Below are positions 8,375 to 58,455 of a stretch of DNA of 64,000 nt, piece by piece. This DNA comes from Desulfosporosinus fructosivorans (GTDB lineage Bacteria > Bacillota > Desulfitobacteriia > Desulfitobacteriales > Desulfitobacteriaceae): contig NZ_SPQQ01000003.1 of assembly GCF_004766045.1 (NCBI RefSeq), forward strand, positions 186,001 through 250,000, in the 5' to 3' direction. Position 1 is the first letter of the stretch. Every line of letters starts with the position of its first letter. A model generated the notes under the pieces. It saw only the letters and a list, made by a program, of their open reading frames with translations. It had not been told where the DNA came from and ran no database searches. The translations under genes and the position numbers were made by a program.

Positions 8375-9402
8375 GAAAATTATTGAATACTCTCTATGTG
8401 ACTTCGCCCAATACTTATTTATCCCTTGATGGAGAAAATATTGTGATTTTAAAGGATGAGGCCGAGTTGCTGAGAGTTCCCCTGCATAATCTGGAGGGCA
8501 TTGTTGCCTTTGGCTATACCGGCGCCAGTCCGGCTCTGATGGGTGCCTGCGCCAAGCGCAATATCGCTTTGAGTTTTATGAAGCCCAGCGGAAAATTCCT
8601 GGGCAGGGTGGTTGGCGAAGTTAAAGGCAATGTTACCTTGCGCAAGACTCAATACAGGTTATCGGAGGATGCAGCAGAAAGCCATAAAATTGCACAATCC
8701 TTTATCTTAGGAAAAATATATAACGCCCGCTGGGTGGTGGAGCGGGCAACCAGGGATCATGGGGCCAGGCTGGATGTGGATAAATTAAAAGGAGTCTGTC
8801 AGACCCTGGTCAAGGCTTTGAAGCTGGTTGAAAATAGTCAGAATTTAGAGCAGCTCCGGGGATTTGAAGGGGAAGCCGCGGCCCAGTACTTCCGAGTATT
8901 GGATGATTTGATTCTTCAGCAAAAAGATGATTTTTATTTTAATTCCCGGAACAAACGTCCTCCCCTGGACAATGTCAACGCCATGCTTTCCTTTGTCTAT
9001 ACCCTTTTGGCCCATGATGCTGCGGCGGCGTTGGAAACCGTTGGGCTGGACCCCTATGTGGGATTTCTGCACCGGGATAGGCCGGGGAGGATTTCCCTGG
9101 CCCTGGATTTGATGGAAGAGCTGCGGGCTGTCTATGCGGACCGATTTGTCATTTCTTTAATTAATAAACGAGAAGTCAATGGTAGCGGCTTTACCCGGAT
9201 GGAAAATGGAGCAGTTATTATGGATGACGATACGCGAAAAGCTGTTCTTAAAGCTTGGCAAAGCAGGAAGCAGGAAGAAATCAGGCATCCCTTTCTGCAG
9301 GAAAAAATGGAATGGGGATTGGTGCCTTATGCCCAGGCTATGCTGCTGGCCCGGTTTATCCGGGGGGATTTGGACGGGTACCCGGCCTTTATGTGGAAGT
9401 AG
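8371..9402 (+). CDS. cas1: Cas1 spacer integrase, type I-C
   Basis: 343 residues, full length. Cas1 is the metal-dependent integrase that inserts new spacers at the leader end. The N-terminal beta domain begins MRKLLNTLYVTSPNTYLSLD. The helical catalytic domain carries GFEGEAAAQYF, HRDRPGRISLALDLMEELR and the KRPPLDNVNAMLSFVYTLL stretch typical of the I-C branch, supplying the conserved Glu and His metal ligands. It is coupled to cas4 by an ATGA overlap. Confidence 0.97.
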   Translation: MRKLLNTLYVTSPNTYLSLDGENIVILKDEAELLRVPLHNLEGIVAFGYTGASPALMGACAKRNIALSFMKPSGKFLGRVVGEVKGNVTLRKTQYRLSEDAAESHKIAQSFILGKIYNARWVVERATRDHGARLDVDKLKGVCQTLVKALKLVENSQNLEQLRGFEGEAAAQYFRVLDDLILQQKDDFYFNSRNKRPPLDNVNAMLSFVYTLLAHDAAAALETVGLDPYVGFLHRDRPGRISLALDLMEELRAVYADRFVISLINKREVNGSGFTRMENGAVIMDDDTRKAVLKAWQSRKQEEIRHPFLQEKMEWGLVPYAQAMLLARFIRGDLDGYPAFMWK

Positions 9403-9418
9403 GTGAGAAGATATTTTA

Positions 9419-9703
9419 GTGCTTATCACATATGATGTAAATACTCAAACGGCGGCGGGGAGAAAGCGACTGCGTCAAATTGCTAGGCAATGTGTGAATT
9501 ATGGACAGCGTGTTCAGAATTCGGTTTTTGAATGTGTGTTGGATGCGGCCAAATTCCGTGAGGTACAGCATAAGCTGGAGCAAATTATTGATAAGGATAC
9601 GGATAGCCTGAGGTTTTATTTGTTGGGCAATAATTACAAGAATAAGGTTGAGCATGTGGGGGCCAAAGCTTCCTTTGATGTTGAGGATACGCTGATCATT
9701 TAG
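9419..9703 (+). CDS. cas2: Cas2 adaptation protein
   Basis: 94 residues starting at a GTG, with AGGTGAG at 9401-9407 as ribosome site. The start MLITYDVNTQTAAGRKRLRQ carries the conserved beta-strand and Asp of Cas2. The protein ends SFDVEDTLII, the usual I-C ending. Cas2 dimers bridge two Cas1 dimers in the integration complex. It is the last gene of the operon and is followed directly by the array 2 leader. Confidence 0.96.
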   Translation: MLITYDVNTQTAAGRKRLRQIARQCVNYGQRVQNSVFECVLDAAKFREVQHKLEQIIDKDTDSLRFYLLGNNYKNKVEHVGAKASFDVEDTLII

Positions 9704-9870
9704 TGCGAATGTGAAGCGAACATAAAATCCCTGGGGGATTCGCACCGCGAGATGACAGGAATTTTGATGAAAAATGACGATAATATTGGATTTGTAAGGC
9801 GGTTCGTGGAAAGAATGCATGAATTTTAATAAAAACCTTTGATAGGAGATAGTTTTATTAGTTTTTTGCG
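9704..9870 (+). promoter_or_regulatory. Leader of CRISPR array 2
   Basis: These 167 bp between cas2 and the first perfect repeat hold no gene and have the position and AT-rich 3' end expected of a type I-C leader, where transcription starts and new spacers are inserted. Confidence 0.75.
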
Positions 9871-10966
9871 GTCGCTCCCGGTATGGGAGCGTGGATTGAA
9901 ATTTTTAGCATTTCTAAATAAGTTGGCTTTACTGCCCGTCGCTCCCGGTATGGGAGCGTGGATTGAAATGGTTGTATCCATGGCTTGTTGCATCAGGACC
10001 TCCGTCGCTCCCGGTATGGGAGCGTGGATTGAAATGTGCAATCATTCCATGCTAGACAAGTATCATTGCAGTCGCTCCCGGTATGGGAGCGTGGATTGAA
10101 ATATCCCTGGTCCATCCTAGGTCAGCTTTCTCTTGCAGTCGCTCCCGGTATGGGAGCGTGGATTGAAATCATAAAGAAGGATTTGCCTGAGTTACGTCCA
10201 CCAACGTCGCTCCCGGTATGGGAGCGTGGATTGAAATTCACCTGCTATGTCCACGCCTTGACCGTACCAAGTCGCTCCCGGTATGGGAGCGTGGATTGAA
10301 ATTGAAATCTTTTGTTTCGTTTCCTCGGAATGTTTAGTCGCTCCCGGTATGGGAGCGTGGATTGAAATTTAATCAGCGTTACCTATACGGAAAACGAAAT
10401 CGGTCGCTCCCGGTATGGGAGCGTGGATTGAAATTTTAAACTCGCTTGCTTACTCGGAGGTAACAACGTGTCGCTCCCGGTATGGGAGCGTGGATTGAAA
10501 TTTATATACGTCGTTTAATTAACAGAACATAGCCAAGTCGCTCCCGGTATGGGAGCGTGGATTGAAATCCATCAAACAGTAAGGGTGGTCGCCCAAAGAA
10601 AGGGTCGCTCCCGGTATGGGAGCGTGGATTGAAATTGCTGTGCTGTGCGACCTTCCGTGAGTGGATTTGTCGCTCCCGGTATGGGAGCGTGGATTGAAAT
10701 CGTAGCAGGCGCGGCAATAACTTTCGCAAGTAACGTCGCTCCCGGTATGGGAGCGTGGATTGAAATTTGTGCTTGTACATATGTTGGCGCAATCAAAACA
10801 AAGGTCGCTCCCGGTATGGGAGCGTGGATTGAAATCTTGAGCCTTTCGTGCTCCCGATGTTCCCGGAAGTCGCTCCCGGTATGGGAGCGTGGATTGAAAT
10901 AGAATCCTTGTCTATCAAGGTAATCGCACCATAAGGTCGCTCCCGGTATGGGAGCGTGATTGAAAT
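9871..10966 (+). CRISPR. Type I-C CRISPR array 2
   Basis: Seventeen repeats start at 9871, 9938, 10004, 10071, 10138, 10206, 10271, 10337, 10403, 10470, 10537, 10604, 10669, 10735, 10804, 10869 and 10936, with 16 spacers of 33-37 bp. The repeat has GTCGCTCCCGGTATGGGAGC in its hairpin half and the handle GTGGATTGAAAT. All copies are identical except the last, which lacks one G in the handle, so the old end is on the right. The stem differs from array 1 (7-bp stem with 5-base loop here, 8-bp stem with 3-base loop there), while pairing is kept in both. One spacer (10569-10603) reads SNSKGGRPKK, reminiscent of phage small terminase starts; this is only a hint. Confidence 0.98.
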
Positions 10967-11367
10967 TATATCTATGCACAGGACCAGTATATTGAAATTT
11001 ACGATAACAATCAGAAAAACTATCAGATTACCGTTGCCACTCAGATGGTCTGAGGCAAATTGTTATCAGGGGAGCTATGCGCCTTATTGTCCGCCAGGGA
11101 ATCAAGCTTAATTACCGCAGATGGATTGTCTCCGGCAATGAAGTGGCAGGTGCAAAATGGTTAACAAAGAAAGTGATTAATAACTGCAGCACTCTGGGGC
11201 GGTCTCCGGTCGCTTCTAAGTTTTTAACTTTTTTGGCAATGGATATACAATTGGTTCTACATGGAGATTGAAATTTTTGAGGCAGGAAAAAGAAGCTAAT
11301 GATGGAACTAATTAGGAGAAGAATATGCAAATAAGCAGGAAAGAAGGTCTTTCAGTTGAGGAGAATA
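10967..11367. other. Gap after array 2
   Basis: No intact gene was found. A broken frame starting at 10970 reads YAQDQYIEIYDNNQKNYQIT before a stop, and a 64-codon frame at 11077-11271 reads RQGIKLNYRRWIVSGNEVAG. Neither was recognised, and both look like gene debris. An isolated ATTGAAAT at 10991-10998 may be a last eroded repeat end. Confidence 0.4.
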
Positions 11368-47572: not shown

Positions 47573-47884
47573 ATGTCTATTTTTGTATCTATGAAAAGAG
47601 ATGACTGGCTGATTATCAGATTCGATTATACTGAAGACCGAGTGAAAAAGATTAGAAGTATCGTTGGACGGTCTTGGAATCAAAAAGAAAGACATTGGAC
47701 GATACCCTTTCAGCATGAGTCAGTAAGGAATTTCTACGATTTGTTTGCCCAGGAAGAGATTATTGTCGATAAGGTAGTCAATGATTTAATTTATGACCTT
47801 ATTCCAGAACTTCGTTATCGAGAATATTATAATTTGCTTATTGAGCCTCAACCCATTCCTCCTGCGCAGAATGTTGGCATTTAG
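47573..47884 (+). pseudogene. N-terminal piece of a tyrosine recombinase, truncated by IS91-like element
   Basis: 103 codons; the first 90 (SIFVSMKRDDWLIIRFDYTE, then GRSWNQKERHWTIPFQHESV) match the N-terminal arm domain of Firmicute integrases with a GRxWxxxxxxWxxP motif. From 47843 the sequence is that of the IS91-like element (shared with 52709). A matching C-terminal piece lies 5.5 kb away at 53444-53623, so both probably come from one gene. Confidence 0.7.
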
Positions 47885-48083
47885 GACAATTCCTGTTACG
47901 GCAGGAATTGAAGGAAACATCCATCGAGCCACATTCCGTGCAAACCTGGGCATGGGAACCCAATGCTGAGGTTCTACAAAGCCGAATCATATGAAAGGCT
48001 TTTGCCTGATCAGGAGAAAGAGACTTAAGCTTGATATGTTTAAAAATATCCTGAAGTTCAGTCAAACGAATCACGCCCATCAA
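47843..48083 (-). pseudogene. IS91-family transposase, N-terminal zinc-finger piece
   Basis: MGVIRLTELQDIFKHIKLKS, then HAQVCTECGSMDVSFNSCRN and RNCPKCQHSAQEEWVEAQ. This is the Cys4 zinc-binding region of IS91/IS801 transposases. The gene is cut at 47843, before the HUH nuclease domain. Confidence 0.9.
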
Positions 48084-48092
48084 GAGGACTTT

Positions 48093-48917
48093 TTACTGAG
48101 GACATATGTTTTGTTGATAGGTGAAGATAGATTGAGGTCGTAGCAATATTGCTATGCCCCATAAGAACTTGAATTGTGCGCAGGTCAGTATTTTTTCCAA
48201 AAGATGGGTTGCAAATGAGTGGCGAAGCGTATGAATCGTTACAGGCTTAGTAATACCAGCCTTTTTTCTAGCATCTAGAAAGACCTTTTGAGGAGTTTTT
48301 GTGGACATAGGTTGACCTTCAACAGGACCCGGGAAAAGCAGATCTGTGGGTCTGTAACGTTTCCAGTAAAGTCTAAGCATTTTAAGGTTTTCATGAGATA
48401 GAATAGTTAAGCGATCCTTGTTGCCCTTGCCATGATTAACTCGGATCGACATAGCCGATGAATCAATATCAGAGATGCGTAGATTAAGCGTTTCGCTAAT
48501 TCGTAGGCCTGAAGCATACGTCGTTAGGAGAATCATTCTGTGCTTTAAGTTTCGCACCTGATCAGTGATGGATAAAATCTCGTCTTGAGAAAGAATATGA
48601 GGAAGGGATTTAGGCCGTTTGGGACGGACAATAACGTCATCAGACCAGTTGTAGCCGAGGACCTTATTAAAAAAGAGTGTAAACGCGCTGCAAGAGATAG
48701 TGATACTGCTGTAGCCAATTCCGGATTTAATACGATCATGAATATATTGTTTAAGCTCATCGGGGGTGATATCGGGGGCAGGCTTACTAGTATGCCTTTC
48801 AAGAAGCTTTACATGGCCGAGATAATGATTCTGGGTATGTGGAGCATAGCCTCTAAGTTCCATTTCGAAGACCATCTTTTGAAGATGAGAGGAAAGAGCC
48901 TGGGATTTTTGGGACAT
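48093..48917 (-). pseudogene. Tyrosine recombinase of IS91-like element, frameshifted
   Basis: 275 codons. SAM-like N-domain (MELRGYAPHTQNHYLGHVKL), catalytic Arg in TTYASGLRISETLNLRISDI, and [13 protein letters not shown] for the H-x-x-R box. Just after, one A is missing relative to copy 2, so the true end (a GH-x-N-I-A-T-T-x-I-Y-like sequence with the nucleophile Tyr) is read in another frame. Probably inactive unless slippage in the A-run restores the frame. Confidence 0.85.
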
Positions 48918-49027
48918 AAAAAAATCATCCTTTCTGCATTACAAGTTATTGGCAGAAAGAATGATATCATGGATTATAGACCTTAGTTAATTTGAGAAAA
49001 AACCACCGCGCAGCGGTTTAGTACAAT

Positions 49028-49169
49028 GTGGGTTATTGGACTCAAAAGGAACAAAAGTAGAAAATATCGCTGGTCCTGGAAGGTTTTTAGGAGCCGATGT
49101 AATTAGGAATTGACTAGTACAGCTTGCATATGATACTTTATCCCTTCCAGAAAACTGATCCATTAGGTG
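49028..49169. other. Fragment beside IS91-like copy 1
   Basis: A startless frame ends at 49111 with GLLDSKGTKVENIAGPGRFL; unrecognised. It may be the broken 3' end of a gene hit by the element. Confidence 0.3.
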
Positions 49170-49925
49170 TTAGCAATCAAAATGATATGTTTCACCATCT
49201 GAGGGTATCAACAATTGTTCCACCCTAATACCATTTGCTTCAGCATATTTCCTTAAACATTCACGAGATATTGTAGTATGATCAAGCGATTCCATATGCG
49301 TGGCAATGATCGTACTAGTAGGCGCAGCTAAACAAACTTTAACTGTCTGTTTGGCATCCATTACGATTGGAATATTATCACCCCATACAGCACCACACGA
49401 ATGTGTTATTATAATCGACGGTTTCACTTGAGAAATAGTGTTGTCAACAGCTTTACACCAAATAGTATCCCCTGCCCAATATACCGTAGGCTCGTTTTCA
49501 TTCTTAAATATAAACCCCGATGCAGCCCCCATCTCTTGTAAAACTTCGCCTGAACCATGCTGACATGCGGTACGGATAATCTCTATGTTTTCCCAAGTTA
49601 TTTGGTCTATGATTGGTACAACACTTTGAAACCCCACAGCTTTAATTTCAGACTCATCTCCTGGCTGGCACAAGATCAGTAAATTTGTTGGTAGCAACCT
49701 TTGAGCAGTTGGGTCAAAGTGATCTGAGTGCAGATGTGAAATAATAGCCATATCTATCCCCGCTATCACTTGAAATGGCTCACAAGGTAACTCCACTAAA
49801 GGATTTAGCGATTTACCTGTGTACGACGGCATTGTGTGTTTTGCTGCTAAGTAAGGGTCAATGATAAATTTTTTTCCCGCATATTCCAATAGTATTGTAG
49901 CACTGCGAATAAGCCTAATTTTCAT
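49170..49925 (-). CDS. MBL-fold metal-dependent hydrolase
   Basis: 251 residues, UlaG-like group. It starts MKIRLIRSATILLEYAGKKF. The metal motif is ISHLHSDHFD near residue 62, with later ligands in YWAGDTIW and IATHMESLDH. Substrate unknown. Part of the leftward passenger pair between two IS91-like copies. RBS AGGAGGT. Confidence 0.85.
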   Translation of the reverse strand: MKIRLIRSATILLEYAGKKFIIDPYLAAKHTMPSYTGKSLNPLVELPCEPFQVIAGIDMAIISHLHSDHFDPTAQRLLPTNLLILCQPGDESEIKAVGFQSVVPIIDQITWENIEIIRTACQHGSGEVLQEMGAASGFIFKNENEPTVYWAGDTIWCKAVDNTISQVKPSIIITHSCGAVWGDNIPIVMDAKQTVKVCLAAPTSTIIATHMESLDHTTISRECLRKYAEANGIRVEQLLIPSDGETYHFDC

Positions 49926-49966
49926 TAGTACCTCCTGCTACCTTTTTTTTCGTTAGCCTAAGTTAT

Positions 49967-50557
49967 TCACTCACCTTGGAATCCCATAAGATACTTTATA
50001 CGACGGCAGTTTTCTGCCGATGTTAGCCTCTCCAGTAAAATAAAAGCTACCTCTAATGCCGTGGACGGAGAAGAAGAGGTGATAATATTTTGGTCAACTA
50101 TTACTGGTTGATTCACTACGTCTACTCCATATGAAGCCAATTGCTTTTGTCGTAAGCCACCATTAAGATGATAGGTAGTCCCCTTTCGTCTTTTGAGAAC
50201 CCCACTCTTGCCCACAGGCAACGCTCCTACACAGATAGTCGCTATATATTTGCCTGCATCATTAAATTGACGGATTAAGGAAAGAAATTCTTCCTGATAG
50301 GCATCTGTATAGAAACCATCCTCTTCGGATCCACCTGGAATAGCTAAGGCATCAAAATTTGACACGTCCACGGTATTTATTTGCATCTCCGGAATGACAG
50401 TAAAACCCCAAGCACTTTTGAGTTGCTTGTGCATTCCACAAGTCACTATTTGAGTGGTTCCATCTCCTTCATATTCGTTCCAGCCTAATACATCTGTAAA
50501 AACACTAGCTTCATAAGCTTCAAAACCGTTAGCCAGTAAAAGTAATACTCTTTTCAT
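49967..50557 (-). CDS. DJ-1/PfpI family protein
   Basis: 196 residues. LLLLANGFEAYEASVFTDVL has the conserved Glu, and YIATICVGALPVGKSGVLKR has the nucleophile Cys in the elbow. Members are glyoxalases, chaperones or amidases. It lies upstream of and in the same direction as the MBL gene, 41 bp away, and divergent from the LysR gene, which probably controls both. Confidence 0.88.
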   Translation of the reverse strand: MKRVLLLLANGFEAYEASVFTDVLGWNEYEGDGTTQIVTCGMHKQLKSAWGFTVIPEMQINTVDVSNFDALAIPGGSEEDGFYTDAYQEEFLSLIRQFNDAGKYIATICVGALPVGKSGVLKRRKGTTYHLNGGLRQKQLASYGVDVVNQPVIVDQNIITSSSPSTALEVAFILLERLTSAENCRRIKYLMGFQGE

Positions 50558-50688
50558 AACTTTACTTCCTTTCTTTCATTTCTGGAAATTCTATGATTTT
50601 ATAGTAACATACAGCTAGATCAGCGTAAAATTGAATATTTCAAACAAAACATTCTATTATTTCGAATTCAAGAGGAGAATATACTAAT

Positions 50689-51582
50689 ATGGACTTCCGC
50701 CAGTTAAGAACCTTCCTCAGCATTGCAAAAATGGGCAGCTTTATAGAAGCTGCCACGCATCTTGGGTATACGCCATCTACGGTAACTACTCATATAAAAA
50801 ACTTAGAAAGTTACCTGGGTATTAAACTCTTCGACCGCCTAGGTCATAAAATCAATCTAACGTCTGAAGGCAGAACCTTTAAAGCTTATGCAGAGAAAAT
50901 CACAAAACTCATTGATGAGGCGAAAGAAGCGGTCACACCCTCACCTATTCCTCATGGAACTATAATCCTCGGAACAGGTGAGTCACTCAGTACTTATAAA
51001 ATTCCAACTTTATTACAGACTTATCGACATGATTACGCTAACGTGGAGCTCATTCTAAAATTTGAGAATTGCAGTAAAATCCGCGACTGTATTCGAAACA
51101 ACGAAATGGATATTGCCCTAATCATTAACCGTAAAGTTGAAGATCCAGACTTTATAGTAAAATGTTTGTCGATTGAACCAATGCTTTTTATTACCGCCCC
51201 GAATCATCCTCTTGCTAAAAAAACAATTTCACTACAAGACCTGAGTGAAACATGTCTTATTTTGACCGAACCAGGTTGCAGCTATCGGGCAACGATTGAA
51301 AACCTGCTTCATACGGCCGATGTCACGCCTCGCTCCCGTATGGAAGTAAATAGTATAGAGTCTATTAAGCAGTTGGTTATGCTGGGCTTAGGTATTTCAA
51401 TGCTCCCTCGTTTTACTGTTGAAAAAGAACTTCAAAATAACCAACTGGCTGTAGCAACACACCATCTACCTCTTCCTCAATATATGACGCAGCTTATCTA
51501 TCACAAAAGAAAGTGGCTTTCACCTGCACTACGGGCTTTTATTGAAACAGTTGATCAAGCTTTTATTGGCTCACATACTTAA
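50689..51582 (+). CDS. LysR-type transcriptional regulator
   Basis: 297 residues. N-terminal winged helix MDFRQLRTFLSIAKMGSFIE and then AATHLGYTPSTVTTHIKNLE; effector domain IILGTGESLSTYKIPTLLQT onward. Divergent from the DJ-1/PfpI gene with 131 bp between, the classic LysR arrangement. The inducer is unknown. Confidence 0.92.
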   Translation: MDFRQLRTFLSIAKMGSFIEAATHLGYTPSTVTTHIKNLESYLGIKLFDRLGHKINLTSEGRTFKAYAEKITKLIDEAKEAVTPSPIPHGTIILGTGESLSTYKIPTLLQTYRHDYANVELILKFENCSKIRDCIRNNEMDIALIINRKVEDPDFIVKCLSIEPMLFITAPNHPLAKKTISLQDLSETCLILTEPGCSYRATIENLLHTADVTPRSRMEVNSIESIKQLVMLGLGISMLPRFTVEKELQNNQLAVATHHLPLPQYMTQLIYHKRKWLSPALRAFIETVDQAFIGSHT

Positions 51583-51817
51583 CATAGCATTTACTTATAT
51601 GACCCCAATGGGTCATAGGACCTGTAACCTCTGCCGTGCTACACTTGGTATATGGGAATTCAATCTTTTCTATTTGGGTTATAAATTATCTGGGTAACGA
51701 TGTGACAAGGGGTAATTTTCCTTCACATTAAAAATACTAAGGTAAACCCCTAAAATTGGATAGACTTCCCCCCTCCCAAGATAGGTAGTTTTCCAAAACT
51801 ATTCAATTTCACAGCGA
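51583..51817. other. Gap between LysR gene and IS91-like copy 2
   Basis: ATGACCC-CAAT-GGGTCAT (51599-51616) is a hairpin after the LysR gene. The left end of the IS copy should lie between about 51740 and 51810, but its exact edge cannot be fixed because copy 1 lacks this end. Confidence 0.5.
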
Positions 51818-52948
51818 TCATGCACTTGAGGTCGTAGCCAAAGAATTAGGAACAAGAATCGTAATAACATCAGCACTTCCACAGGAACGGCAGGCTTTCG
51901 CGTCTTTCTGGACTTTAATAGTTGGAGGCAAGGGCTTGTGCCCAGTCATCTTCATGCATTTAGAAAGCTTTGACTTAATATTTCGGCTGCAAAGCAGACC
52001 ATAATGTCTGATCTTAACAAATCGATTTGGTAGAACATGAAGAAGGAACCGTCTGGAAAACTCAGCTGCATTAAGAGTCATGACTTTGGACTTATTGCCA
52101 TCCTTATAATCCCTCCAGGAAAAACTCACCGATTGACCGTCAAATGCCAGAATTCTAGAGTTACTAATCGCGACTCTGTGAGTATACCGTCCAAGATAAC
52201 GAACAACATGACCCGGAGATTTAAACGGTTTCTTGCAAAAAACAACCCAATTTTTGTTGTATAATATGTTGATAAGAGAAAGGAAATTGCTTCTTAACGC
52301 AAGTTTGGTAGCCTCGTTAAAGAACGCAATTTCCCCATTGTTATAGGCCTTTTTTAAAAGGTCAAGAAATTTTCCTTTGAACTTTCTCGAAACAACTTTA
52401 ACAGGGATAAAAAACTTCTTACGAGAACGGACGAAACGAAGTCCATCGTTGGAAAGTCCCCCGCCAGGGACAATACAATGAACGTGGGGATGGAATGAGA
52501 GATTTTGTCCCCACGTATGGAGGACCGTGGTGGCTCCAATCGTAGCACCGAGATATTTAGGGTCTTTAGCTAGTTCCATCAACGTATGTCCTGCAGATTT
52601 AATTAAAAGGGAATAAAGAAGTTTCTGATTTTACAAAACAAGGCTGTTAAGTTCATGCGGGATTGTAAAAACAACGTGGAAGTAACCGACAGGTAAAAGT
52701 TTGGACATTTGAGCCTCAACCCATTCTTCCTGAACAGAATGTTGGCATTTTGGACAATTTCTGTTACGGCAGGAATTGAAGGAAACGTCGGTTGAGCCAC
52801 ATTCCTTACACACTTGGGCATGGGAACCCAGTGCTGAGGTTCTGCAAAGTCGAATCATATGAAAGGCTTTTGCCTGATCAGGAGAAAGAGGCTTAAGCTT
52901 GACATGTTTAAAAATATCCTGAAGTTCAGTCAAACGAATCACGCCCAT
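51818..52948 (-). pseudogene. IS91-family HUH transposase with internal stop
   Basis: The Cys4 N-terminus (CKECGSTDVSFNSCRNRNC) and VGYFHVVFTIPHELNSLVL reach a TAA at 52633. The same frame continues NQKLLYSLLIKSAGHTLMEL and on through the HUH motif LSFHPHVHCIVPGGGLS, then YLGRYTHRVAISNSRI with the likely nucleophile Tyr, and a C-terminal zinc pair CRSCGSADV. One CAA-to-TAA change separates two otherwise intact halves. IS91 elements move by rolling-circle transposition. Confidence 0.88.
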
Positions 52949-53323
52949 CAAGAGGACTTTTAACTGAGGAGATATGTTTCTTTGATAGGTGGAGATAGAT
53001 TGCAGTCGATGCAATATTGGTGTGCCCCATAAGGACTTGGATCGATGCGTTGTGTCAGTATTATTTTCCAGAAGATGAGTTCCAAAGGAATGACGAAGTG
53101 TGTGGATCGTCACAGGCTGCGTAATACCGGCTTTTTTTCTAGCAACTTGAAAGACTGTTTGAGGAGTTTTTGTGGACATGGGTTGACCTTCAATGGGACC
53201 TGGGAAAAGTAGACCGGTGGGTCTGTATTGTTTCCAGTAAAGTCTGAGCAATTTGAGGTTTTCATGAGATAGAATCGTTAAACGATCCTTGTCACCCTTA
53301 CCATGATTAACCCGGATCAACAT
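52949..53323 (-). pseudogene. Tyrosine recombinase of IS91-like copy 2, deleted and frameshifted
   Basis: It begins abruptly at MLIRVNHGKGDKDRLTILSH, which corresponds to the middle of the copy 1 protein; the N-terminal 150 residues are deleted. After HTLRHSFGTHLLENNTD a small insertion shifts the frame, so the frame runs on into the transposase gene. Confidence 0.85.
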
Positions 53324-53443
53324 AAAATATCATCCTTTCTGCATTACAAGTTATTGGCAGAAAGAATGATATCATGGATTATAGACCTTAGTTAATTTGA
53401 GAAAAAGCCACCGCGCAGCGGTTTAGTACAATGTCTCTTATGG

Positions 53444-53623
53444 AGAGCTCCCCATAACCGGCATTCTTTTGCAACCCACCTCTTAGAGAGGGGAACAGAC
53501 CTTAGATATATTCAAGAAATTTTAGGGCACCAAAATTCTAAAACAACGGAGATCTATACCCATGTTTCTAAGAAGAGCATAGGGAATATCCAAAGTCCTT
53601 TAGACTCTTTGGAACTTAATTAG
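53444..53623 (+). pseudogene. C-terminal piece of a tyrosine recombinase
   Basis: [20 protein letters not shown], then [18 protein letters not shown] and SPLDSL. It contains the second catalytic His/Arg region and the nucleophile Tyr (EIYTHV). It begins right at the end of IS91-like copy 2. It is probably the other part of the gene whose N-terminus is at 47573. Confidence 0.85.
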
Positions 53624-53648
53624 CTTAATCGGTTAATGTAGTAAGAAA

Positions 53649-53715
53649 GGGGAATTACCCGAAATTACCTTCGGGTATTCCCCTAAAATGTTAGAATATC
53701 CGAAATTAATTTCGG
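53649..53715. repeat. Two adjacent inverted repeats
   Basis: GGGGAATTACCCGAA (53649-53663) pairs with TTCGGGTATTCCCC (53670-53683), leaving one base unpaired. CCGAAAT-TA-ATTTCGG (53700-53715) is a perfect 16-base palindrome. Both contain CGAA/TTCG and could be a terminator-like or operator region after the integrase fragment. Confidence 0.6.
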
Positions 53716-53800
53716 TAATCCCATAGTTATCGGACATCTAAGCTTTTATAATTCGGGTGGGATCATCTCGGTAAGAACAGAAGGTGGAAAGAAGTAGAAA

Positions 53801-54265
53801 ATGGGAAAAAGTGAGAATGATTCATCCATTCCAAGGCACAAACGAATGAAGAGAACAGAGAGGCTTCAAGCTGGTAGACATTGGCTCCCCACGTACATAG
53901 GGAAAAATATTGTAAGGGGTTATGCTAGGCACTTTGCAGTAGATTTACTTTGTGCAGTTAAGGAATTGGAAATGTTGGGTCATCAGTTTAAGCCTGAGTA
54001 TGTTGATCAATTGAAGCGGGCTATTGCAGTCCAAATAGAGCAAAATCAAGAACGGAAAAAGTTGAAAGCGGAGCAGGAAATGTTTACATCGTCTGAATCT
54101 GATGATCAATTTTGTTACATAGCGGGATATACATCTAGCGGTGCACCTTATGGAGTAACATGGGAAGAGATGGATGCCAATGAACATTGGGATGAAAACT
54201 ATTTAGACGTAGGTCCACTAGAAAACAGGGATGAGACTGATGAAGAAGATGATATCCCATTCTGA
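53801..54265 (+). CDS. Conserved hypothetical protein
   Basis: 154 residues. Basic N-terminus (HKRMKRTERLQAGRHWLPTY), a helical middle (YARHFAVDLLCAVKELEMLG) and a C-terminal motif YIAGYTSSGAPYGVTWEEMD with an acidic tail. Similar proteins are common in Bacilli and Clostridia, often near cassettes and mobile DNA; no function is known to me. It is followed by the first cassette-type element at 54309. Confidence 0.7.
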   Translation: MGKSENDSSIPRHKRMKRTERLQAGRHWLPTYIGKNIVRGYARHFAVDLLCAVKELEMLGHQFKPEYVDQLKRAIAVQIEQNQERKKLKAEQEMFTSSESDDQFCYIAGYTSSGAPYGVTWEEMDANEHWDENYLDVGPLENRDETDEEDDIPF

Positions 54266-54308
54266 CAATAAGGAAACGAACGTCTGGGTAGCATTAACCG
54301 ACGTCCGA

Positions 54309-54384
54309 CAACAGCGGGTTTCCAAAATTTGAGAGAATATGAAGGTGGTAAGCAGACTTCGGGAACCCGTGAACCGTTATACGA
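54309..54384 (+). repeat. Cassette-boundary element A
   Basis: CGGGTTTCC (54315-54323) pairs with GGGAACCCG (54361-54369). The loop contains GAGAGAATATGAAGGTGGTA. The right edge is CCGTTATACGA (54374-54384). Compare elements B to E. Confidence 0.6.
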
Positions 54385-54424
54385 CCGGCCGCCTTCAGGC
54401 AGTACTTTGAGGGGAGGTAATAAT

Positions 54425-55012
54425 ATGCCAAGATTATTTGGTGAAGAAATTATGCTGCGCGAATACAAAAGAGAAGATTTAAAACATATAAGGAAATGGG
54501 TTAACGATCCGGAAGTCGTCAATAACCTTTCGGACATTTTTCTCCAACCTCATACGTTGGACGCAACAGAGGACTTTCTTAATTCCGTACTAAAAGGCAC
54601 CAGGCAGAATACATACTGTTTTGTTATTGCTGATAAAGAATCAGAAACTTATATTGGGCAAATTGACTTATTCAACATCAATTGGAAAAACCGATATGCA
54701 GAAATAGGTATTGTGATTGGGGAAGAAGTAAATAGAGGAAAAGGGATTGGTGCCGAAGCTCTAAGGGTGTTGCAGGAATTTGCGTTTAATAGGCTCAATA
54801 TGAACCGCCTTGAGATTAAAGTTCATTCATATAACACTCGGGCATATCAATGCTACTTGAAGAGTGGTTTCATAGAGGAAGGAAGATTGAGACAGATCTA
54901 TTATATTCATGGTTCGTATTTTGATACAATTGTTCTTTCGATGCTTAAGAACGAATTTGAAAGCAAGATGCAAGCGCGACCCGTCGTACAACAAGGTGTT
55001 CCCGTAACTTAG
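54425..55012 (+). CDS. GNAT acetyltransferase (RimJ/RimL type)
   Basis: 195 residues from the ATG at 54425 (GAGGGGAGG upstream). GNAT fold with EIGIVIGEEVNRGKGIGAEA as the acetyl-CoA P-loop (R-G-K-G-I-G) and the closing motif NMNRLEIKVHSYNTRAYQCY. The last dozen residues (ARPVVQQGVPVT) are encoded by the left arm of element B, suggesting that the gene ends inside the cassette boundary. Substrate unknown; such cassettes often carry resistance-type acetyltransferases. Confidence 0.88.
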   Translation: MPRLFGEEIMLREYKREDLKHIRKWVNDPEVVNNLSDIFLQPHTLDATEDFLNSVLKGTRQNTYCFVIADKESETYIGQIDLFNINWKNRYAEIGIVIGEEVNRGKGIGAEALRVLQEFAFNRLNMNRLEIKVHSYNTRAYQCYLKSGFIEEGRLRQIYYIHGSYFDTIVLSMLKNEFESKMQARPVVQQGVPVT

Positions 55013-55063
55013 CCAATATGAATGTAGTATGGCGCTACGGGAACACCCAGGACGTCTACGACA
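54990..55063 (+). repeat. Cassette-boundary element B
   Basis: GGTGTTCCCGTA (54995-55006) pairs perfectly with TACGGGAACACC (55036-55047). The loop holds CAATATGAATGTAGTATGG. The right edge is GGACGTCTACGA. A short separate hairpin (CGCGCCA/TGGCGCG) follows at 55077-55094. Confidence 0.65.
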
Positions 55064-55129
55064 TATCGTGCACGAACGCGCCATCCATGGCGCGAATAAT
55101 GCTTGGGAATGTGTTATGGAGGAGTAAAG

Positions 55130-55645
55130 ATGGAAATCAGAAAAGCAACAATTGACGATGTTAAAGATATTAGCCGTATTTATGCTTTAAGCTGGAAATT
55201 TGCATATAAAGGGATAATTCCTCAAGCCTACTTAGATGAGCTAAAAGAGGATCATTGGGAATCAGTATTTGTAGATTGGATAAAAGACAATGTTTTAACT
55301 GCAGAGATTGTATTTGAAAACGGTAAGCCAATTGGCTGTGTTGCATATGGAAAATCCAGAGATAAGTCACTCCCAGATTGTGGAGAAATTGTTTCTCTTT
55401 ATTTGTTGCCGGAATATTTCGGCAAAGGATATGGTAATAAGCTGTTAGATTCTGCATTATCAGATTTAAAAGAATCCGGGTATGAAAGCATCTACTTATG
55501 GGTACTAAAGGATAATCCACGGGCAAGACGCTTCTACGAAAAAAATGGGATACGATGTAACAATGATGAATATGTTTTAGAAATTATGGGGGAGCAGCTT
55601 ATTGATGTGCGATATGTTTATTCTTTTAACAGTTGTACTAAATGA
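55130..55645 (+). CDS. GNAT acetyltransferase
   Basis: 171 residues from the ATG at 55130, with GGAGGAG just upstream. It starts MEIRKATIDDVKDISRIYAL. Motif A is GEIVSLYLLPEYFGKGYGNK and motif B is YLWVLKDNPRARRFYEKNG, both standard for GNATs. Substrate unknown. It is the single gene between elements B and C. Confidence 0.9.
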   Translation: MEIRKATIDDVKDISRIYALSWKFAYKGIIPQAYLDELKEDHWESVFVDWIKDNVLTAEIVFENGKPIGCVAYGKSRDKSLPDCGEIVSLYLLPEYFGKGYGNKLLDSALSDLKESGYESIYLWVLKDNPRARRFYEKNGIRCNNDEYVLEIMGEQLIDVRYVYSFNSCTK

Positions 55646-55705
55646 TTATGAAATGAGTTAATAACATCATAGTGTAATCTGGATATCTTTATGTGAATGC
55701 TTAAG

Positions 55706-55727
55706 GCAGCGCCCTTCATGGCGCTGC
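55706..55727 (+). terminator. Small GC-rich hairpin
   Basis: GCAGCGCC-CTTCAT-GGCGCTGC; no T-run. Confidence 0.5.
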
Positions 55728-55752
55728 TGAGTCTGGGGTACGATACGTCGTA

Positions 55753-55827
55753 GAACAGCGAATTGCCGATACTTCGTCAAGATGCATGTGGGCAGGACGC
55801 GTCGGCAATTCGCGGCACGTTATCAGA
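55753..55827 (+). repeat. Cassette-boundary element C
   Basis: GCGAATTGCCGA (55758-55769) pairs perfectly with TCGGCAATTCGC (55802-55813). The right edge is GCACGTTATCAGA. The loop does not share the AATATGAATGTAGTA core of the others. Confidence 0.6.
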
Positions 55828-55862
55828 AATTGCTAGGTCATTAAAGGGGGAGTAGGTTTTTC

Positions 55863-56378
55863 ATGATTGAGAATTCTTCGACGGAAAAACGTCCTCGGTT
55901 AGAAATTCATCGGTCTTTTCTAGAAAATATTTTTGAGATAGGGGCGTTAATTGGAGTAATAGCTTCATTGATTAGTCCTATTCGAGCGTGGTCTTCCTTA
56001 CCTAGCAAAATTCCAGCTCATTACAATATTTATGGGGAGATTGACCGATGGGGATCGAAGGGAGAAATATTCCTGTTAGTTCCCATCATCATTCTTATGT
56101 ACATATTCCTAACTGTATTAAACCATTATCCACACCGATTTAATTACCCATTTGCTATTACTGAGCAAAATGCAGAAGAACAATATCGTTTGGCAAGGTT
56201 AATGGTTCAAGTTCTAAAAGTAGAAGTCATATGGATTTTCTTTTATATTGAATGGATAAGTATTAAAGCTGCAATGAGTAAAGCGATGGGGCTGGGAAAA
56301 GCCTTTATGATTATATCCTTAATATTAGTATTTAGTACGATAGGTGTTTACATCTGGCGGGCGTTTCGGGTCAAATAG
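55863..56378 (+). CDS. DUF1648 membrane protein
   Basis: 171 residues with four membrane segments. WSSLPSKIPAHYNIYGEIDR followed by WGSKGEIFLLVPIII is the DUF1648 signature (as in the SdpI/YwmF group). Some relatives are immunity proteins, but this one lacks the full SdpI domain. It is the single gene between elements C and D. Confidence 0.8.
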   Translation: MIENSSTEKRPRLEIHRSFLENIFEIGALIGVIASLISPIRAWSSLPSKIPAHYNIYGEIDRWGSKGEIFLLVPIIILMYIFLTVLNHYPHRFNYPFAITEQNAEEQYRLARLMVQVLKVEVIWIFFYIEWISIKAAMSKAMGLGKAFMIISLILVFSTIGVYIWRAFRVK

Positions 56379-56412
56379 TCGCTATTGGGTATGACTGCCC
56401 GCAACTCCAGAT

Positions 56413-56490
56413 AGCAGAGGGTTTGGCGACAGCGGAGAGAATATGAATGTAGTAACCCGACGTCGCAAACCCTCGGGACGTTATATGAAA
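56413..56490 (+). repeat. Cassette-boundary element D
   Basis: GAGGGTTTGGCGAC (56417-56430) pairs with GTCGCAAACCCTC (56462-56474), leaving one G unpaired. The loop holds GAGAGAATATGAATGTAGTA followed by ACCCGAC. The right edge is GGGACGTTATATGAAA. Confidence 0.7.
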
Positions 56491-56525
56491 GTCGGCGGAA
56501 CGAAAAAAAAGCAACCTGTTTGAGG

Positions 56526-56804
56526 CTACTTTGATGGGAAAACTTCATCATGGGTTCCGATAATATAAAGAGTGTTTATCTGGTCACTTGCCTCGGACGT
56601 TACTTCGATGATGATCCGTACCGACTTATTGACTCTAATTTCATAGAAGTTATCTGTTCCTTGAATTTTTTTATATCGTAGTGAGGGATGGCTTGGGTCG
56701 GAGATGAATAACTCAATAGATTTCTCTGCTTGTTTCGAAGTCTTAAAGTCAAGTTGCTTAAATTGCTTATCAAATTTTCGAGTAGATTTAAAGCGCCTGG
56801 TCAT
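56526..56804 (-). CDS. RelE/ParE-superfamily toxin
   Basis: 92 residues: TRRFKSTRKFDKQFKQLDFK, then SLRYKKIQGTDNFYEIRVNK and VRIIIEVTSEAS. The fold is that of RelE/YafQ-type mRNA interferases. It overlaps the upstream antitoxin gene by 4 bp. It lies between boundary elements D and E but on the opposite strand. Confidence 0.85.
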   Translation of the reverse strand: MTRRFKSTRKFDKQFKQLDFKTSKQAEKSIELFISDPSHPSLRYKKIQGTDNFYEIRVNKSVRIIIEVTSEASDQINTLYIIGTHDEVFPSK

Positions 56805-57085
56805 TGTTTAATACCGTCAAGAAATTGATTAACGGAATTAAACTCACGAACGTTACCGGAATCAACATCGTTTTTGGCCTCGAGCATATCATTTTGGACT
56901 TTATCAGACCAAAAGTATGCTTGGCTAGAAGGAACAAGTTTCATAGGTTCAATGATAATTTTATTGTTCTCCATCCTAATGTCGAGTACATCGCCTTCAT
57001 TGATATTAAGTTGTTCACGGATATCTCTGGGAAGGCTTATGAGGTTTCGTTTTTGAACGAAAATTTTATGGGAGTCAATTGACAT
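56801..57085 (-). CDS. AbrB/MazE-type antitoxin
   Basis: 94 residues from the ATG at 57085 behind AGAGGTG; a GTG three codons upstream overlaps this site. The N-terminal swapped-hairpin DNA-binding domain reads KIFVQKRNLISLPRDIREQL and then EGDVLDIRMENNKIII. The acidic C-terminus should cover the toxin. A TATAGT-like box lies about 30 bp upstream in an AT-rich region. Confidence 0.88.
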   Translation of the reverse strand: MSIDSHKIFVQKRNLISLPRDIREQLNINEGDVLDIRMENNKIIIEPMKLVPSSQAYFWSDKVQNDMLEAKNDVDSGNVREFNSVNQFLDGIKQ

Positions 57086-57202
57086 GATTATCACCTCTTT
57101 AATGTTTTGTTATTATAGTATATGCGTTATTACGTAATATTGCTAGTGAAAAGAGAGCTGTTTTAGTCAGGTATTCCTCTGGAGCGCCGACCTTCATATA
57201 AA

Positions 57203-57248
57203 CAGAGGGTTTAGCAACATCGGAGAGAATCTGAATGTAATAACCCGA
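57203..57248 (+). repeat. Cassette-boundary element E (partial)
   Basis: The left arm GAGGGTTTAGCAAC (57205-57218) and loop GAGAGAATCTGAATGTAATA plus ACCCGA closely match element D, but the right arm and edge are missing. It looks like the broken end of the array. Confidence 0.65.
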
Positions 57249-57284
57249 ACATAACCAATGTACTTACTATTGAATTTTCGATTG

Positions 57285-57590
57285 ATGTCGCCTAAGATAT
57301 TTGCACTTCAAGAAAGAGAGAATACGAAGGTCCAAATGCTGGAGGCAGGCTTTTCACTGATCAAAACATGCGGGATGACACATGCTTCGGTAGAGAAAGT
57401 TACGAATGCAGTTGGTGGAGGAAGGTACCCATTCGGAACTGATTGCGAAAAAAGGATTGTATGAGAGATTATATGACGTTCAGCAGCAAAGCCTAGGATG
57501 GAGTCTTTAAAGGAACCCGACAGGGGAGGAGCTTTTGAGGATGTTTTCCACCAGACTATAATCCAGAATTGGAGGGACTTTGAAGAGTAA
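57285..57590 (+). pseudogene. TetR-family regulator remnant
   Basis: ATG at 57285: TKVQMLEAGFSLIKTCGMTH and ASVEKVTNAVG form the first helices of a TetR DNA-binding domain. The frame then breaks. Another frame resumes with ELIAKKGLYERLYDVQQQSL and reaches a stop near 57588. Not functional. Confidence 0.7.
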
Positions 57591-58405: not shown

Positions 58406-58455
58406 TCAGACCTAATAATATTGTGACGGTCAGATCAAAATATTATTAGGTCTGA
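58406..58455. terminator. 17-bp perfect hairpin
   Basis: TCAGACCTAATAATATT (58406-58422) pairs with AATATTATTAGGTCTGA (58439-58455) around a 16-base loop. It is upstream of cooT on its minus strand, so it could affect CooT expression or end another transcript. Confidence 0.6.

Follow-up and report, generated by a model that had tools for sequence, protein, structure and literature searches.

How do small genes strung between recurrent hairpins come to stand in one array, and what moves them? The question is raised by a stretch of 64,000 nucleotides from Desulfosporosinus fructosivorans (NCBI RefSeq assembly GCF_004766045.1, contig NZ_SPQQ01000003.1, positions 186,001 to 250,000 of the forward strand), here called the window. 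At 53727-57250, four complete attC-like elements and one cut element separate five cassettes. An earlier note, made from the sequence alone, had read part of this array as a gene-capture system, and breaks at an attI-like site, moved cassettes and the pairing of cassette starts with cassette ends suggest that it was largely right. We consider it probable that the window holds a broken integron-like platform, whose intact relatives would capture, excise and reshuffle cassettes through a hairpin folded from the bottom strand and cut at G|TT. Both the recombination itself and the bottom strand as its substrate are things we infer from sequence comparisons. The system works like an integron, yet it lacks one mark by which integrons are defined, the IntI domain of the integrase.

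Cassette starts pair with their own ends

Throughout the array, the bases that immediately follow one element are the complement of those leading up to the next. This complementarity between a cassette's start and its own end is the signature of an integron cassette, because the site is rebuilt when the cassette circularises. Following its logic revealed an extra upstream cassette, starting at G53726. Complementarity and first cassette had both been overlooked in the earlier note, as had the attI-like site and the two ends of the integrase gene described below. Cassettes 0-4 of the window pair with their own ends at 8, 11, 13, 10 and 14 of 14 positions (positions 4-18 without position 11; cassette 2 was allowed a single gap, and in cassette 4 a single base was passed over). 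Pairings of a start with the end of another cassette averaged 6.2 with a maximum of 10, and the own-pairing total was the highest among all 120 permutations. Position 11 reads A.C in cassettes 0, 2, 3 and 4, and C.C in cassette 1.

The pattern recurs in a larger collection. An nhmmer profile built on the 150 best sites returned 276 hits; dropping 29 partial hits and 9 without a clear AAC or GTT left 238, from which 202 cassettes were kept (intervals of 150-5000 bases, median 892, one overlapping locus omitted). Cassette starts paired with their own ends at 7.81 of 10 positions, compared with 5.82 for the neighbour that shares the physical site and 5.46 after shuffling (n = 202). The fraction of positions paired was 0.766 in register and 0.27-0.41 when slid, and pairing extends to about position 18, with position 11 excepted.

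All five cassettes of the window lie on the plus strand, and each holds one gene or one pair, as the earlier note had stated for the intervals that it saw and Pfam searches confirmed. Cassette 0 (53727-54376) combines an open reading frame (ORF) of 154 residues (53801-54265), for which a Pfam search gave no match, with site A (54299-54389). Cassette 1 (54377-55054) carries a GNAT acetyltransferase (54425-55012; Acetyltransf_3, 1.3e-24), whose stop falls within an arm of site B (54979-55066), a detail that the earlier note had caught. A second GNAT acetyltransferase (55130-55645; Acetyltransf_1, 3.8e-20) and site C (55743-55832) make up cassette 2 (55055-55819), and a DUF1648 protein (55863-56378; DUF1648, 4.5e-15) and site D (56402-56493) make up cassette 3 (55820-56480). 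Cassette 4 (56481-57250), eroded at its right end, bears a toxin-antitoxin-like pair on the minus strand: a ParE-like gene (56526-56804; ParE_like, 3.3e-4, below cut-off) and a MazE/AbrB-like gene (56801-57094; MazE_antitoxin, 5.4e-11).

Five elements had been placed on one plan. Sites A-D agree with it, scoring 75.3, 76.9, 86.1 and 74.8 bits against a covariance model that had these four sites in its training set. The fifth, site E (57185-57250 on the plus strand; given as 57203 before), is a left half only, with R'', left arm and loop and without right arm or right edge, and the model did not match it. The GTTAT-type edge needs one correction: the edge of site B, GTCTACGAC, is one base shorter than GTTCTACGACATATCG, the commonest cassette start in relatives (13/202 cassettes).

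Homology breaks at G|TT and whole cassettes move

Upstream of cassette 0 lies an attI-like site (53640-53726, plus strand) with two related hairpins, ending at the G of G|TT. When the window and a genome of the same genus (G021) are aligned at GTT, identity is 92% in the 60 preceding bases and 25% in the sequence that follows. Three pairs among G041, G039 and G054 show 87-98% identity before GTT and 30-38% after; the G003/G018 pair shows 57% and 27%. Homology between relatives thus stops at the recombination point, with the same attI followed by a different first cassette, and the five attI pairs point to insertion at G|TT next to the integrase gene. The earlier note had anticipated such exchanges in related strains with exact edges. 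A promoter consensus scan near attI gave 4 matches, compared with 11.1 in shuffles.

Whole cassettes also recur at other places. We found 11 homologous cassette pairs (7 within and 4 between genomes), all with flanks less than 50% identical on both sides. Five are whole-cassette pairs of 663, 1393, 803, 954 and 693 bases at 99.4-100% identity. Identity is 97-100% in the 40 bases inside each of their edges and 30-42% in the 40 bases past the right edge; on the left, bases 12-40 outside the edge, within another site copy, are 46-75% identical. Of 179 cassettes no longer than 2 kb, 159 have their longest ORF in the forward direction and 18 in reverse, and 2 have none. As in integrons, the cassettes therefore stand in tandem, are mostly single-gene and same-oriented, and appear to move as units.

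The cargo is varied, again as in integrons. In the window it comprises two GNATs, a DUF1648 protein, one protein without a Pfam match and the opposite-strand ParE-like/MazE-like pair; 75 cassette ORFs of at least 80 residues from three genomes match 97 Pfam families, none of them found in more than two ORFs.

Hairpin arms covary and sites are widespread in the genus

We aligned 37 sites (alignment A2), of which 35 were hand-picked from 110 scan rows and two, window sites A and B, were added by hand. Pairing as such was partly selected, because the seed scan demanded perfect arms of at least 8, AAC/GTT-type ends and at least 5/8 pairing at the edges of the physical site. In the alignment 95.9% of cells pair, compared with 22-41% in slid controls, and 10 of 16 pairs change on both sides, which bears out the claim that arms vary while pairing is kept. 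The covariation score was 0.457 against 0.102 when shuffled, a value reached by 0 of 500 shuffles. Seed selection accounts neither for this covariation nor for the match between a cassette's start and its own end. The sites therefore show the variable sequence, conserved palindromic structure and AAC...GTT ends of attC, with ends and unbroken arms partly required in the seeds.

At E <= 0.001, a covariance model of the 37 sites (R1) matched 66 of the 198 genomes, among them that of the window, when the best candidates of each genome (at most 22) were scored. By rank, matches occurred in 26/29 genomes of the genus, 13/16 further genomes of the family, 17/28 further genomes of the order and 10/125 of the remainder. 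Over an even draw of the phylum, 32 of 398 genomes matched at 1e-5 (best candidates, at most 10 per genome, scored). Across 33 loci chosen for holding sites or integrases, R1 gave 263 matches (two sites of the overlapping L055 and L114 counted twice). As a rule a single site marks each cassette boundary, and the genes enclosed by the same edges differ; the abundance that the earlier note had proposed to look for was there. All sites lie on the same strand in 28 of the 31 loci with nhmmer hits, the mixed ones being L041, L107 and L113. The largest array (G064) packs 53 sites, every one of them on the plus strand, into 56 kb downstream of an integrase whose sequence reads in two frames. One match at 84.3 bits lies on Desulfosporosinus lacus contig NZ_FQXJ01000018 (L084) and at G018 C20:108867-108957.

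The window's genome holds 16 sites, 4 of them inside the window and some alone or paired elsewhere. A second cluster, at C22:185.5-197.9 kb (G000), has seven such sites on one strand. An Rfam scan of 53400-57400 found nothing over cut-off and one sub-threshold match. The loop motif alone was tried as a site marker in this genome and set aside as too weak, with 55 forward hits against 35 in the reversed control. Weak R1 matches in other families of the phylum (G195, G403, G443, G382, G160 and G119) span 145-148 bases, compared with the 90-base type; they may represent a further type of site belonging to this system.

A transposon splits the integrase gene

The earlier note saw no IntI; it was mistaken in that no integrase was visible, for a split tyrosine-recombinase gene flanks the array. 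Its N-terminal piece (47573-47836, plus strand) runs for 88 residues up to the break and forms a separate small domain with a W..W.P motif. Part of it aligns at 68% identity with the G021 integrase frame (residues 9-60), and the piece is common to relatives (alignment A6). The C-terminal piece (53456-53623, plus strand; Phage_integrase, 7.2e-14) ends in SPLDSLELN and a stop; G021 has a 333-residue open frame whose end matches it at 91% identity. There, the extreme N-terminus lies in a different frame, and the same attI region with other cassettes follows downstream. The middle part of the window's integrase was searched for between the two pieces and not found.

Between the pieces lies a transposon insertion (47837-53434) with two IS91-like copies around other genes. 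Each copy has its own tyrosine integrase (Phage_integrase, 1e-27) and a Y2 transposase or its remnant (Y2_Tnp, 1.2e-62), and both end in ...TTTAGTACAATGT. The genes between them are metallo-hydrolase-like, DJ-1/PfpI-like and LysR-like, as named from ORF reading alone.

The C-terminal piece has 13 matches in the window's genome, the next best after its own at 3.1e-13, and no intact close relative of the integrase was found there. Because the integrase is destroyed and no such relative was found, the array is predicted to be frozen, barring an outside integrase. A more distant integrase on contig C2 (201 bits to the G021 frame) could in principle act on the array in trans. An integrase of uncertain kind lies at 138 kb on C2.

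In relatives, a tyrosine-recombinase gene or its remnant precedes attI and array. Among 19 loci fetched around integrase matches, 11 hold covariance-model hits; in the remaining 8 the contig stops 95-1,914 bases past the integrase. One locus (L048, in G003) carries two related integrase genes in tandem on the array strand, at 9290-10117 and 10352-11167.

The integrase relatives lack the IntI domain

Boxes I and II are 92 residues apart in 12/12 same-order relatives and 133 apart in 5/5 canonical IntI. The additional domain specific to IntI, described as what distinguishes IntI (PMC9024848), is thus missing in the relatives, and the window's broken gene is without this stretch altogether. The domain has been linked to the action of the tyrosine recombinase on folded single-stranded attC (PMC9024848, PMC9668308). 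Against TIGR02249, the integron integrase family (cut-off 265 bits), two integrase relatives scored 216.9 and 212.9, below cut-off, and a search of the window's genome gave no match above it. The same two relatives scored just above the cut-off of NF040815 (220), at 221.7 and 226.9 bits. A wider, capped list of 7,999 scored candidates contained at least 5,391 related integrases. With the XerA-type recombinases of that family, named 'site-specific tyrosine recombinase/integron integrase', the integrase shares its catalytic layout; unlike them, it has an extra N-terminal domain and precedes cassette arrays.

The integrase's best match in the PDB, by sequence and by fold, is VchIntIA/IntI4 (2A3V), with which it shares an SPL-type C-terminal end. 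Residues 184-238 of the 2A3V chain are nearly absent here, aligning to only 13 query residues. K209, Y210, W219 and P232 are among eight named contacts of IntI4 to extrahelical bases (PMC3053210); these four of the eight fall inside the mostly missing stretch.

A tree was built from 36 rows, after 12 that were short, doubled or damaged had been removed from 48; the window's split gene is not among the 36. Four canonical IntI form a branch of their own (100/99). Another branch (93/93) divides the 12 relatives from the other groups, with ungrouped rows such as Paenibacillus falling among the relatives, and two Xer-like proteins encoded in the window's genome lie outside the integrase clade.

The hairpins carry other marks

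Canonical folded attC sites have two extrahelical bases on one side (PMC3053210). Among 202 folded sites of our collection, two single-base bulges in the inner arm occur in 2, and the arm insert columns hold bases in 1-2 of the best 150 sites. The absence of the IntI domain and that of the bases IntI reads coincide. In their place, the hairpins bear an 18-bp outer box with a near-universal A.C, a one-sided bulge and a conserved loop. The bulge, at the cut, has at least 3 bases and mostly 4 in 149/202 sites. Position 11 is A at the start of 201/202 cassettes and C at the end of 190/202, and this A.C reads as a G.T pair on the bottom strand; one inner column is A.C in 73/150 sites. A control for position 11 in canonical cassettes is thin, with two cassettes bounded by eye (L154, C-G; L178, T.C): of 12 stretches fetched, most ended beside intI, and the folding-based site finder returned mostly noise.

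In folding calculations with DNA parameters, 186/202 sites have a bottom strand more stable than the top (by a mean of 3.45 kcal/mol), compared with 124/300 random windows, which are random pieces and not hairpins. In silico, the sites thus fold preferentially from the bottom strand, as attC sites do.

We propose that the tyrosine recombinase would act on attI and cassette sites at G|TT, taking up, releasing and reordering cassettes. Its substrate would be a hairpin folded from one strand, the bottom one, and the site would be rebuilt as a cassette closes into a circle and its first and last ~18 bases pair. The integrase may recognise this hairpin by the 18-bp outer box with its A.C (G.T on the bottom strand), by the one-sided bulge of about 4 bases at the cut and by the conserved loop, with the extra N-terminal domain possibly assisting.

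Weighing the alternatives

Several observations count against a cassette platform that works through folded hairpins. Arrays follow only 6 of the 12 compared integrases (L039, L041, L042, L043, L048 and L052), the contigs of the other 6 stopping within 1.4 kb, and several array-adjacent integrases are broken or cut (L045, L046, L054, L055 and L056). In 33/202 cassettes start and end pair poorly; 17 of these exceed 2 kb and may hide a missed site. In the window, cassette 0 pairs at only 8/14 positions and cassette 1 departs from A.C at position 11. The expected bulge is missing from 53/202 folded sites, and the inner arm of 23/202 bears one or more single-base bulges, despite a model biased against bulges because its seeds were mostly chosen with unbroken arms. 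The match of the N-terminal domain to a HARP/XPB-DRD/UvsW-type domain is weak. Outside position 11, the outer stem shows no clear strand bias: among cassettes with 9 or more Watson-Crick pairs, the top strand has A.C 55 times and G.T 45 times. The case for the bottom strand hangs on position 11, one inner column and folding energies; since wobbles show no clear excess elsewhere in the outer stem, strand choice, if real, is set by few positions.

This last point is where the most serious competitor begins. The same cassette platform could use ordinary double-stranded recombination, with the inverted repeats serving unfolded as paired binding sites of a dimer, as in Xer/dif. An Xer-like integrase without the domain that reads folded sites would suit that reading, as would mismatches without clear overall strand bias at all but two positions. 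Yet the arms vary freely while their pairing is kept, so they hold no fixed binding sequence; the near-universal A.C forms a G.T pair on the bottom strand alone; and that strand is the stabler in the great majority of sites. We judge double-stranded recombination unlikely, and folded hairpins remain our preferred reading.

The likeness to integrons is close enough that one might see here an ordinary integron, or a cluster of attC sites lacking an integron-integrase (CALIN), of a canonical IntI acquired from Proteobacteria. An integrase gene adjoins a primary site; cassettes are tandem, mostly single-gene and on the same strand; hairpin sites have AAC...GTT ends and a G|TT edge; each cassette start pairs with the R'' of its own site; and the cargo is diverse, toxin-antitoxin-like genes included. 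A few CALIN and one complete integron are also known in Firmicutes (PMC9024848). However, none of the 12 relatives of the adjacent integrase has the IntI domain or groups with the IntI clade, paired inner-arm bulges are almost never seen, and the sites are common in the genus (26/29 genomes), all of which makes such an acquisition very improbable.

The differences extend to layout. Canonical intI is usually divergent from its cassettes; here the integrase gene lies on the cassette strand with its 3' end at attI. The sites differ from those of integrons in their ~18-bp outer box, A.C at position 11, 1x5 spacer, general want of a pair of extrahelical bases in the inner arm and conserved apical loop. 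The earlier note's 'unlike attC' is half right: the sites follow attC logic, but hairpin code and integrase depart from the canonical ones. With CALIN the array of the window's genome shares the lack of an intact close cognate integrase, none having been found there, but it keeps the remains of its cognate integrase together with attI, and open integrase frames exist in some relatives.

Modules can also be shuffled by housekeeping XerC/XerD at dif-like sites, as in pdif modules, and the Xer-like catalytic domain and toxin-antitoxin-like cargo recall them; hairpins of ~90 bases beside a dedicated integrase with its own attI, in place of short dif-like cores, and a clade apart from the two Xer-like proteins of the window's genome leave this explanation with scarcely any probability. 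Structured intergenic repeats with no part in gene movement, whether like miniature inverted-repeat transposable elements (MITE), repetitive extragenic palindromes (REP) or RNA, would fit recurring hairpins with a conserved loop that are sometimes single or paired elsewhere in the genome, but are already contradicted, and next to impossible, given no Rfam match above cut-off, attI breaks at G|TT, moved whole cassettes and start-to-end pairing across intervals of mostly 600-2800 bases.

Relatives beyond Firmicutes and published surveys

In other phyla, we checked 14 hairpin sites in 9 loci with integrase relatives. In five loci, from a Micrarchaeota bin, a Euryarchaeota bin, Desulfobacterales, Desulfobacteraceae and a Desulfovibrio bin, the end of the first site pairs at 13-14 of 14 positions with a GTT lying 80-120 bases past the integrase match, and position 11 is A.C. 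Agreement was weaker (11/14) at L080 and at one L091 site, the latter at the previous site's GTT. The other seven sites of the nine loci had no such partner, their best values of 9-11 being the chance level of a best-of-many scan. Among the five, a full-length frame without the IntI domain is present only in the Micrarchaeota integrase; the other four are partial matches. The archaeal and other-phylum bins may be contaminated.

The IntegronFinder 2.0 paper lists one complete Firmicutes integron (Limnochorda pilosa) and a few CALIN, and calls integrons in Firmicutes extremely rare (PMC9024848). A survey of archaeal integrons relied on a profile of the IntI domain (PMC9668308), and arrays of the present kind would probably be overlooked by surveys or filed as CALIN. 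For an integron-like subgroup, the CAT insertion is described as 'not fully conserved' (PMC8138268), so such integrases may be lumped there. Among the titles listed from open-licence PMC papers (in two cases 20 of 73 and 15 of 140), which fall short of proving absence, we found no report of integrons or attC arrays in Desulfosporosinus or Desulfitobacterium, and none of integrons without the IntI domain.

A wider reading, to which we give even chances, is a second integron lineage across Bacillota, Desulfobacterota, other phyla and archaeal bins. Its Xer-like integrase would never have gained the IntI domain, would read another hairpin code, perhaps with an N-terminal domain that binds DNA structure, and would serve arrays of superintegron size that surveys requiring the IntI domain missed. 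A cassette system on a large scale, with the IntI domain and the bases it reads both missing, is a natural test of what integrons need. It may represent an ancestral or parallel route to integrons, opens a little-explored cassette pool in Firmicutes and perhaps offers a new recombinase/site pair for DNA assembly.

Other features of the window

Outside the array, at 58406-58455, lies a near-perfect long inverted repeat (21 bases, 95%) with a loop of 8 bases. At 477-575, two copies of a CGCTTCCCACAGGGAAGCGTGGATTGAAAT-like repeat lie within 100 bases; judging by its appearance, we guess that the repeat is part of a CRISPR (clustered regularly interspaced short palindromic repeats) array.

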